Origin: Patescibacteria group bacterium | GTDB taxonomy: Bacteria; Patescibacteriota; Saccharimonadia; Saccharimonadales; UBA4665 | Assembly (NCBI GenBank): GCA_030271625.1 | Contig: JARXKN010000001.1 | Coordinates: 1-64,000, forward strand | DNA length: 64,000 nucleotides | Reading direction: 5' to 3' | In this document: positions 30,805 through 35,881 of the stretch, in pieces | Layout: the number at the start of each line of letters is the position of its first letter | How positions within the stretch are numbered: the stretch's first letter is position 1 | Made by a program: the position numbers and the translations under genes | The notes under the pieces: generated by a model | Database searches by the model: none | Seen by the model: the letters and a program-made list of their open reading frames with translations, nothing else | Told to the model about the DNA's origin: nothing

Positions 30805-30840
30805 TTGGCGGGCCGTGGCTCTTGCGGTACAGAACTATTT
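30805..30840 (-). repeat. 36-bp element at the end of an AT-rich single-gene unit (copy A)
   Basis: TTGGCGGGCCGTGGCT (30805-30820), 11 variable bases, then GAACTATTT (30832-30840). The same two blocks with identical spacing occur at 31204-31239. The first 10-11 bases also match the tRNA-Asp 3' end and its copy. On minus the element overlaps the stop codon of the 110-residue protein. Confidence 0.75.
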
Positions 30841-31167
30841 CTCTACGCCGAGCACTGCCAGTAACCCAGTGGCTGCAATACGTTTATCTTCAGAAAGTGT
30901 TTGATTCTGCTCTGCTAAAAGAGCACTTGTTATGATTGCACTTTTAAATTCGGCTGTTGAGCCGCCACGAAAGTGAGCTTTTAGGTCATCCATTGTTTCG
31001 GTGTCGCTATCAGAGAGTTCATGGGCACGTTGCAGAGCACGTAAACTGCTTACTGCATCTGGACAGGCCTCAGTAATCTCCAAAACATTGATTGCTGTGT
31101 CTACTTGAAGCCTGCCTGAGAGAAACATTTCATCGGGACCAAACCGGTTTGCGTCGAAAGCTGTCAT
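30835..31167 (-). CDS. Unknown 110-residue protein in a single-gene unit
   Basis: Acidic, soluble, probably helical (residues ~20-100), no cysteine motif beyond one Cys, no signal peptide. No family recognised. A TTGATT, 17-base spacer and TATTAT promoter (31175-31203) ends 7 bases before the ATG with no Shine-Dalgarno, so the mRNA should be leaderless. The -35 begins right where repeat copy B ends, and the gene's stop codon lies inside copy A, so promoter, gene and element form a compact unit. Confidence 0.65.
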   Translation of the reverse strand: MTAFDANRFGPDEMFLSGRLQVDTAINVLEITEACPDAVSSLRALQRAHELSDSDTETMDDLKAHFRGGSTAEFKSAIITSALLAEQNQTLSEDKRIAATGLLAVLGVEK

Positions 31168-31174
31168 AAAATAA

Positions 31175-31203
31175 ATAATACCATAATAGTAGTATTAAAT
31201 CAA
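31175..31203 (-). promoter_or_regulatory. Leaderless promoter of the 110-residue protein gene
   Basis: Minus-strand TTGATT, 17-base spacer, TATTAT ending 7 bases before the ATG. It abuts repeat copy B. Confidence 0.5.
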
Positions 31204-31239
31204 TTGGCGGGCCGTGGCTTCGGAAATATGGAACTATTT
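31204..31239 (-). repeat. 36-bp element (copy B)
   Basis: TTGGCGGGCCGTGGCT (31204-31219), 11 variable bases, GAACTATTT (31231-31239), identical in both blocks and spacing to copy A. It sits right after the stop codon of the peptidase-like gene (on minus). Confidence 0.75.
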
Positions 31240-31847
31240 TAGCTTGTCAGAATGTAGTCTGAATCTCCAAGAGTCTTCACCGTAGCGTACTGAGCCATAT
31301 CGATAGCGCACTTATCTAATACCTCTATGTACTTTTCATTTCCCCAATGCGGTATGATTCCATAATCTACTAAGCCCAAACCATCCCAAATCACTTCAGG
31401 CGCAAGGTTTGAATCGTCTATGTTCTCTATACCATGTAAAGTCCTACCAGCGATTACCGCACCTGCACTTTCGCCACCATAGACAAGCCCGTTCTTAATT
31501 AATTCTATGATTAACTTATGAAAACTAGATTGTTGAATAGCCCAATTTAAATAAAAGGTATTGCCACCCATTATCCAGACTCCTTGAAAATTTCTTAACG
31601 TCTTCTTTAAATCGTCTCTTCGGTCTTTATATTCTAAAAGGTCTAGAATTATCGGCTCGAAGCCCATAGATTTCAACCTGACACAAAGTGCCTCGACGTA
31701 AGGCAAACTTTTCTCTTTAGGATAAACATCCCCGGCATTTGGTATGATAGCGATTCTATTAGACTGAGTTTTCTCAAATAGTTGCTTGAATGCCTGTTCG
31801 TTAGGGATGGAAAGTGACGAAAGGTATATTTTTTGTACTTGATTCAT
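31239..31847 (-). CDS. Peptidase S51-like (dipeptidase E family) protein
   Basis: 202 residues. The nucleophile elbow GGESAGAVIAG near residue 123, IMGGNTF near 92 and the N-terminal strand IAIIPNAGD mark the peptidase E/S51 branch of the class I glutamine amidotransferase-like fold, which includes Asp-dipeptidase and cyanophycinase. Substrate not assignable. Base composition is clearly more AT-rich and codon use differs from neighbours, suggesting transfer. A -10 TATCAT ends 6 bases before the ATG, predicting a leaderless mRNA; a terminator-like hairpin (31863-31886) lies just upstream. Confidence 0.85.
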   Translation of the reverse strand: MNQVQKIYLSSLSIPNEQAFKQLFEKTQSNRIAIIPNAGDVYPKEKSLPYVEALCVRLKSMGFEPIILDLLEYKDRRDDLKKTLRNFQGVWIMGGNTFYLNWAIQQSSFHKLIIELIKNGLVYGGESAGAVIAGRTLHGIENIDDSNLAPEVIWDGLGLVDYGIIPHWGNEKYIEVLDKCAIDMAQYATVKTLGDSDYILTS

Positions 31848-31862
31848 AAAATAATGATAGCA

Positions 31863-31886
31863 AAAAGAGACTATAAGGTCTCTTTT
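31863..31886. terminator. Hairpin with A and T tracts upstream of the S51-like gene
   Basis: AAAAGAGAC and GTCTCTTTT form a 9-bp stem with a 6-base loop. Either a terminator for a transcript from tRNA-Asp side or part of the mobile unit. Confidence 0.55.
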
Positions 31887-31901
31887 GTATAGTACTTATG
31901 C

Positions 31902-31921
31902 TTGGCGGGCCCGACCGGACT
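31902..31921 (-). repeat. Copy of the tRNA-Asp 3' end
   Basis: The 20 bases TTGGCGGGCCCGACCGGACT are identical to 32074-32093, the CCA, acceptor and T-stem of tRNA-Asp. AGCGCACTTCGTGC follows, a UUCG-type hairpin like the one after the tRNA-Val copy. Confidence 0.9.
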
Positions 31922-32073
31922 AGCGCACTTCGTGCTTTATCCGCTTACCTTTCTCGGAGCAAGCTCCTGCGAGAGGTTCGCTCCAAGAACCGGCGCCCTG
32001 CGGGCTGTGCCGCTTGCAAGCTCAGTTCGGGATTCAGCAAATAAAAAGACCTACACGAGGTAGGTCTTTTTAT
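31922..32073. other. Palindrome-rich 152-base interval between the copy and tRNA-Asp
   Basis: Opens with AGCGCACTTCGTGC, has TTCTCGGAGCAAGCTCCTGC (31951-31970) that recurs in complement near tRNA-Thr, and GGTTC/GAACC. It ends in a terminator (32039-32074) where AAATAAAAAGACCTAC pairs with GTAGGTCTTTTTATTT. No gene. Confidence 0.7.
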
Positions 32074-32074
32074 T

Positions 32075-32150
32075 TGGCGGGCCCGACCGGACTTGAACCG
32101 GCGATCTCCTCCGTGACAGGGAGGCGTGATAACCGCTTCACTACGAGCCC
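32075..32150 (-). tRNA. tRNA-Asp (anticodon GTC)
   Basis: Acceptor GGGCTCG pairs with CGGGCCC (one G-T), anticodon stem CCTCC/GGAGG with loop CTGTCAC giving GTC, T-arm GCCGGTTCAAGTCCGGT. CCA is encoded. A 16-bp terminator begins at once. Confidence 0.97.
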
Positions 32151-34868: not shown

Positions 34869-34960
34869 GAATAATTCCTGTTTAGATTACAGCTATTGTA
34901 ACAGATATAAACCCCCTGCTCTAGCGTGACAGTCGGGCGCTGTCGTCGTACAATATGCTT

Positions 34961-35881
34961 ATGTTGTTCGCCAAAGCCAAAACCGATTTTCTAGAGTACC
35001 TAGAGATTGAGCAAAACCGGTCGCAAAAAACGATCGCTAACTACGATCATTACCTAACCCGGCTGCATGATTTTGCCGGCGATATTCAGATAGCAGATAT
35101 CGATGCTGAGTTAATTAGAAAATGGCGGCTGTGGCTCAATCGGCTTGGCACAAACACATCAGATGAGCTCGGTAAGGCGACTCAGAATTACCACTTGATT
35201 GCCCTACGCAGCTTTTTGAAGTTTTGCGCTAAGCGTGACATCCCGGCCATGTCAGCCGATAAGATTGAACTGGCCCGCACTAAGCGGAAACAAGTGACTT
35301 TCTTAAATGAAGACGAGCTGCTGCGAGTGTTTGCCGAGCCTGATATCACCATGCTGGCTGGGTTGCGCGACCGGGCCATTCTGGAATTATTATTTAGCTC
35401 AGGACTGCGGGTGAGTGAGCTCGTCGGACTTGATAAAGACCACATCAACCTAAAGCGGCGTGAGTTTATGGTCCGTGGTAAGGGCCAAAAAGACCGGCCA
35501 ATCTTCATTAGTGAACAGGCTGCTACCTGGGTGCAGGCGTACATTGATAAACGCCAAGATACCACCCGCCCCCTGTTCGTCCGCTACAGCGGCCGTAAAA
35601 CCGTTGACCTATCGGGTAATTTCCATCGCCTGACGGCTCGGAGTATACAGCGGCTGGTAGCTCGCTACGCCCTCATGGCCGGCATTACCAAACATGTCAG
35701 CCCCCACACCCTGCGCCACTCATTCGCCACTGATTTGTTGATGAATGGTGCTGATCTGAGAAGTGTTCAGGCCATGCTTGGCCACAGTAATATTGCCACT
35801 ACCCAAATTTATACGCACGTCACCGACCCACACTTGCGGTCCGTTCATGAGAAGTTTCATGGCAAAGCGCCGGAAAGTTAA
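34961..35881 (+). CDS. Tyrosine recombinase, XerC/XerD family
   Basis: 306 residues. N-terminal SAM-like core-binding domain (~1-90), then the catalytic domain with Arg in SSGLRVSEL, Lys in GKGQKDRP, His-x-x-Arg in SPHTLRHSF, His in LGHSNIATTQ and the Tyr nucleophile in IYTHV: all residues are present. The likely job is chromosome dimer resolution, but it is also the only tyrosine integrase near the tRNA-linked repeats. Start chosen at the second ATG: GTGACA (34926-34931), 17 bases, TACAAT (34949-34954), then 6 bases, so the mRNA is predicted leaderless; an ATG at 34955 is the alternative. Confidence 0.94.
   Translation: MLFAKAKTDFLEYLEIEQNRSQKTIANYDHYLTRLHDFAGDIQIADIDAELIRKWRLWLNRLGTNTSDELGKATQNYHLIALRSFLKFCAKRDIPAMSADKIELARTKRKQVTFLNEDELLRVFAEPDITMLAGLRDRAILELLFSSGLRVSELVGLDKDHINLKRREFMVRGKGQKDRPIFISEQAATWVQAYIDKRQDTTRPLFVRYSGRKTVDLSGNFHRLTARSIQRLVARYALMAGITKHVSPHTLRHSFATDLLMNGADLRSVQAMLGHSNIATTQIYTHVTDPHLRSVHEKFHGKAPES

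Follow-up and report, generated by a model that had tools for sequence, protein, structure and literature searches.

Gene cassettes anchored at tRNA-Asp in Saccharibacteria: an integron-like arrangement with a site probably derived from a large serine recombinase

The stretch of DNA considered here, called the window throughout, comprises the first 64,000 nucleotides of contig JARXKN010000001.1 (assembly GCA_030271625.1), from a member of the Saccharimonadales. Near its middle lies a tRNA-Asp gene behind which come, in the order of the minus strand, a 152-bp interval, a copy of the tRNA 3' end, a gene of peptidase family S51, a 36-bp site (element B), a gene for a 110-residue protein and a second 36-bp site (element A; Table 1). 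Both genes face the same way, as had been seen in an earlier note made from the letters alone, all measurable points of which proved correct. Its left-to-right listing took the units backwards: on the coding strand the gene comes first and the element second, and each element ends the gene lying upstream of it. On the minus strand both elements have the form AAATAGTTC-N11-AGCCACGGCCCGCCAA. The shared blocks and their equal 11-base gap, singled out in that note, are hardly fortuitous, as a pair with 25 fixed positions and equal spacing is expected by chance about 2e-6 times per 64 kb. The duplicated tRNA end is equally real: the 20 nucleotides of the copy are identical to those at 32074-32093, the 3' end of tRNA-Asp, 152 bases apart.

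The matches of the S51 gene to NCBIfam all fell below cut-off, searches of family collections including Pfam and NCBIfam gave no match for the 110-residue protein, and comparison of the 152-bp interval with Rfam gave weak sub-threshold matches only. A tRNA-end copy placed before the first cassette is also found at another locus, L123. GC-rich intervals of 150-185 bp following the tRNA-Asp terminator occur at L174, L181, L189 and L123 as they do in the window; they contain inverted and direct tRNA fragments and a terminal copy of the tRNA 3' end, and they span several families, including some loci without cassettes.

Table 1. Features of the tRNA-Asp locus, with positions in the window
Feature	Position	Strand	Remarks
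tRNA-Asp(GTC)	32075-32150	minus	3' end ..CGGTCGGGCCCGCCA, the array anchor (attB / attI-like site)
Interval, 152 bp, GC-rich	31922-32073	none	tRNA terminator and tRNA-like fragments inside
Exact 20-nt copy of tRNA-Asp 3' end, TTGGCGGGCCCGACCGGACT	31902-31921	minus	apparent insertion platform of cassette 1
Cassette 1 proper, 698 bp	31205-31902	minus	leader, S51 gene, element B; directly after the tRNA-end copy
Peptidase family S51 gene (dipeptidase E / cyanophycinase-like), 202 aa	31239-31847	minus	Pfam PF03575, E 3e-26
Element B, 36-bp site AAATAGTTCCATATTTCCGAAGCCACGGCCCGCCAA	31204-31239	minus	end of cassette 1; 50 bits
Cassette 2, 399 bp	30806-31204	minus	37-bp leader, 110-aa gene, element A
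Cassette 2 leader	31168-31204	minus	promoter-like TTGATT ... TATTAT, ends at ATG
110-aa gene, matches no family	30835-31167	minus	stop codon inside element A
Element A, 36-bp site AAATAGTTCTGTACCGCAAGAGCCACGGCCCGCCAA	30805-30840	minus	distal end of cassette 2; more diverged, 38 bits
XerC/XerD-type tyrosine recombinase	34955-35881	plus	conserved neighbour of the locus; not favoured as cassette enzyme

The element is not peculiar to this genome. Within the family, a pattern search allowing up to three mismatches recovered it from 23 of 93 genomes. With a refined pattern, the order (Candidatus Saccharibacteria) yielded 41 bearers among 393 genomes, all genomes being sampled at one per species and many of them being MAGs; the bearers include Candidatus Saccharibacteria MAGs. 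The reversed control pattern gave no match in either search. A position matrix was then built from 97 distinct sites (consensus AAATAGTTCCAGACCTCCTCAGCTACGGCCCGCCAA); on 722 kb of shuffled sequence it gave no score above 8, the cut-offs used being 14 or more. This matrix was trained on the loci to which it was applied, orientation and anchor remaining outside the training. It found the element in 5 of 19 loci from genomes that the pattern search had picked as free of arrays, and the prevalence given above is therefore a lower bound. Of the 36 bp, eight or nine (GCCCGCCA) are common to the tRNA, and the left 27 are not. The units join at GCCCGCCA|, to the right of which the sequence is almost unconserved: a conserved right half-site was sought across the cassettes and was not found. 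A second type of site, approximately GTTCGAAAGTCCGACTCGATGTCCCGCCA, splits composite cassettes at seven loci (L041, L044, L049, L053, L060, L117 and L139); its antisense reading, WRDIESD, looks as if it came from another subfamily of large serine recombinases (LSRs).

The arrays are anchored at tRNA-Asp. In the 43 loci where the stretch also holds tRNA-Asp, 80 of 81 elements lie downstream of this gene and on its strand, and the arrays start immediately at its terminal ..CGGTCGGGCCCGCCA. The element that departs from this, at L122, seems to belong to an array that was displaced and whose upstream site is truncated, and a few ectopic arrays begin at sequences resembling the tRNA end (L053, L055).

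Extraction of the units produced 89 cassettes, three of them from a duplicate contig, with a median length of 778 bp. The usual unit measures about 0.4-1.5 kb, up to five following one another in an array, and it is made of an often present promoter directly after ...CCGCCA, one gene or a toxin-antitoxin pair, and the element. A minority are longer (2-8 kb), several of these being LSR units, or composites in which a site has decayed or is of the second type. Among 67 short cassettes, 64 have their longest open reading frame in the sense of the element, and stop codons often fall inside the element or just before it, the element itself being able to supply TAG. Many leaders are 37-44 bp long, and motifs of the -35/-10 type were present in 28 of the 89, against 1.6 expected and 3 of 88 cassette bodies. 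By our own count about 36 of the 86 non-duplicate cassettes carry toxin-antitoxin-like genes, such as PIN proteins with MazE/AbrB-like or other small partners, or YafQ with a RelB-like partner; NUDIX, GNAT, APH, M15, macro, HAD, PP2C, methyltransferase and cupin proteins make up other cargo. Most units have no integrase. At L060:2009-3178 a composite cassette encodes a protein with a match to PDC-S01 (E 6e-113), a candidate family for phage defence.

It is worth emphasizing that the content of these arrays is exchanged between genomes. Homologous cassettes occupy different positions in arrays of different genera, and in clear pairs the similarity begins right after CCA| and stops at CCA|. In the cleanest pair, 96% identical over 695/695 bp, the cassette follows the tRNA directly in G032 and comes second in G063. 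The two genes of the window are not a fixed feature of their locus either: within the same genus, one relative (G085) has a different cassette there and two others (G088 and G089) show no recognisable element, the genes on the upstream side being the same in all. Recurrence, common anchor, swapped positions and variable content strongly support serial insertion of cassettes at the 3' end of tRNA-Asp, as the earlier note had proposed. Divergence from the consensus is greater in distal than in proximal elements (30 arrays, Wilcoxon p=0.012), and this decay fits growth of the array from the tRNA. The units thus appear to move, or to have moved; neither a circular intermediate nor gain or loss within a species was seen in a sample of this composition. 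Two local peculiarities may be recorded here. At L051 an insertion of about 1.4 kb bearing a transposase separates tRNA-Asp from the first cassette, and is absent from the near-identical L137. L037 and L059, identical three-cassette arrays, come from two MAGs (G009, G055) whose assigned genera differ; an error of binning may be the cause.

What, then, could have moved them? Serine recombinases were present in all 12 array genomes tested. In two genomes, G125 and G363, the space separating tRNA-Asp from the first element contains an intact antisense LSR of 516-517 residues, of which the final dozen codons (WRARPDSNRRSPP in G363) are read from the strand opposite to the 3' end of tRNA-Asp. These LSR units start at the tRNA 3' end and stop at the 36-bp element, the same two ends as those of the other cassettes, and a search for a boundary inside them found none. 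In G177 an LSR 58% identical is placed in the same way at tRNA-Met, and an element of the 36-bp type (33 bits) makes the other end of its 4.9-kb unit. The element hence goes with the LSR, not only with tRNA-Asp. Resolvase, recombinase and zinc-ribbon domains were confirmed in the LSRs of these three units, the assignment being made on general LSR domains only. A paper reconstruction in which the ends of each LSR unit are brought together shows no interruption of the LSR frame across the element; this holds for five units out of five, three with intact and two with truncated LSRs, whose read-through sequences are WRTVTLEVWNYF, WRAVAKEVCNYY, WWSLTEQVWNYI, WRAVVQDIWNYF and WRAVALQVWNYY. On this ground the element is best read as an attP half-site that would also encode the C-terminus of the LSR. 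Truncated remnants of LSR genes in units of G053, G075 and G029 connect the autonomous units to the cassettes devoid of LSR. The two cassettes of the window belong to the latter kind; its genome has only a 30%-identical LSR, located elsewhere, and they would be non-autonomous derivatives. At ten loci of Saccharibacteria (L247-L256), an LSR of one broad clade follows a tRNA gene (Val/Ala, Gln, Lys, Ala, Gly, Met, Arg) immediately and in antisense, the C-terminal codons of several overlapping the tRNA; this clade looks as though targeting of tRNA genes were its general habit.

We may now put forward a scenario, which we consider probable: the locus in the window would be a small member of a family of mobile cassette arrays, anchored at tRNA-Asp across the order, with a site derived from an LSR and units mobilised in trans. 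In a typical cassette a promoter would precede a single gene or a toxin-antitoxin pair, and at the end would come a site equivalent to the P arm, or left half, of an attP belonging to a tRNA-directed LSR; in the autonomous parent element this site would have the further role of coding for the end of the enzyme. The site of a free unit, presumably circular, would recombine with the 3' end of the tRNA within the GCCCGCCA common to both, the crossover probably falling at CA. The tRNA would be restored in the process and the new unit placed between it and the older ones, so that the array would grow from the tRNA. Most units would have lost the LSR, and would rely on one provided in trans when, now and then, an autonomous element comes in.

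Several facts go against the LSR as catalyst. Its close relatives were found in 4 of the 393 genomes at E<=1e-75, against 41 with elements, the codon-position pattern within the element is only suggestive (p=0.06), and the left border of some homologous cassettes is off by 1-7 bp. In addition, the sequence beyond CCA on its right side is hardly conserved; a recombination site with two arms would not be expected to look like this, and neither an LSR nor a Xer enzyme explains it. Carriage by viruses, a separate matter, was rejected, as a search of IMG/VR returned neither the element nor a relative of the LSR. Rarity of the LSR genes relative to the arrays, together with the unconserved right arm, would suit some other trans-acting recombinase, of phage or plasmid origin, with the LSR units as mere passengers. 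This we regard as improbable, in view of the LSR frame that crosses the element in all five LSR units, and of an association between LSR and element that is repeated at a second tRNA. The chromosomal XerC/D-like recombinase that lies 3 kb away, named in the earlier note as a possible actor, is an unlikely agent too, if a slightly better one. According to this explanation, the elements and the tRNA 3' end would be sites of the Xer type. The gene is close to tRNA-Asp across the order, its product is the sole PF00589 protein in 10 of the 11 array genomes that have any (that of the window excluded), and the protein is 83-88% identical within the family when nearly all its neighbours are much less conserved. 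Its linkage to tRNA-Asp is, however, equal in genomes without arrays; since proximity holds with or without them, it is probably ordinary synteny, and the attribution of the cassettes to this enzyme is probably wrong. Furthermore, the element has no evident 11-6-11 layout of inverted repeats, the locus sits 100-180 kb from dnaA and not at the terminus, and the element also ends an LSR unit at tRNA-Met. A dif site was sought near the skew switch or replication terminus of G127 and G076, where a CIRCE-like element but no convincing dif was found.

Two other explanations have much less in their favour. As tRNA 3' ends are common targets of integration, and IS and LSR elements lie at the same place in some genomes, several unrelated integrative elements with their own integrases might have accreted in tandem, the shared element being a copied end of the target. 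This is very unlikely: only 8-9 of the 36 bp are common to the tRNA, the remaining 27 forming a conserved motif that the target lacks, and most units carry no integrase of their own. A divergent integron, working through an integron integrase and attC-like sites in folded single-stranded form, is what the layout first evokes, with a gene followed by a site, a single orientation, an anchored array, toxin-antitoxin cargo and decay with distance. The only candidate integrase nearby reaches 135 bits against a cut-off of 265 for TIGR02249, and fits XerC, XerD or XerA better; ten folds of the element, on both strands, were no better than those of shuffled sequences (z-scores -0.8 to +1.0); and the junction is GCCCGCCA|, not GTTRRRY. 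Integron identity was rejected on the score of the integrase and the lack of an attC-like fold, and we give it hardly any credence. The word integron-like, used in the earlier note, therefore holds for the layout and not for the machinery: the idea of cassettes was right, and the resemblance is functional, not genealogical.

No prior description of such arrays was found in the open-access literature on integrons, cassettes, Xer, serine integrases, tRNA elements or Saccharibacteria, as far as titles and the openings of abstracts tell. Several known systems are nevertheless built on comparable principles. Staphylococcal SCC elements, whose large serine recombinases are of the ccr type, have in common with the present arrays a recombinase of the general LSR kind, insertion at a conserved gene's 3' end, tandem accretion and units devoid of LSR; the differences are that our units are the size of single genes, that the target is tRNA-Asp and not rlmH, and that most arrays have no LSR at all. 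CIME/IME, too, are units with att sites on either side that lack autonomy, pile up at a tRNA and are mobilised in trans. Their accretion at tRNA genes is among the subjects reviewed in PMC5704250. The present units share the stacking at a tRNA and would share the mobilisation in trans, differing in their size, in a number of five at most per array, and in a 36-bp half-site conserved across the order. The pdif sites of Acinetobacter plasmids are 28-bp XerC/XerD sites. Papers on these pdif (Xer) modules present them as single genes bounded by short recombination sites (PMC7399989, PMC11705084). That much is common to both systems, whereas the element described here is longer and linked to an LSR. 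The tycheposons of marine bacteria also bring cargo to tRNA genes in streamlined genomes, as in the present case, but they rely on tyrosine recombinases and are much larger than our units.

Class 1 and chromosomal integrons provide a close functional parallel: small cassettes in one orientation, a site at the 3' end of the gene, an anchored first site, wealth of toxin-antitoxin genes and distal decay. Unlike them, the arrays have no IntI, attC hairpin or GTTRRRY junction; they are anchored at a tRNA, and many of their cassettes come with their own promoter. Saccharibacteria, whose genomes are tiny, live on other bacteria. To our knowledge, little is understood of the way they take up adaptive genes. 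We are inclined to think that integron-like gene capture evolved independently in these organisms, from a tRNA as platform, half of an attP as cassette site, and integrase-less cassettes with promoters of their own, mobilised in trans by rare autonomous relatives. If this is true, adaptive genes could arrive by way of a permanent platform where single genes accumulate at one fixed tRNA, and its exact 36-bp tag lets mobile genes be found in metagenomes. The task fulfilled by integrons would then have received a second, independently evolved solution, built this time on a serine integrase.
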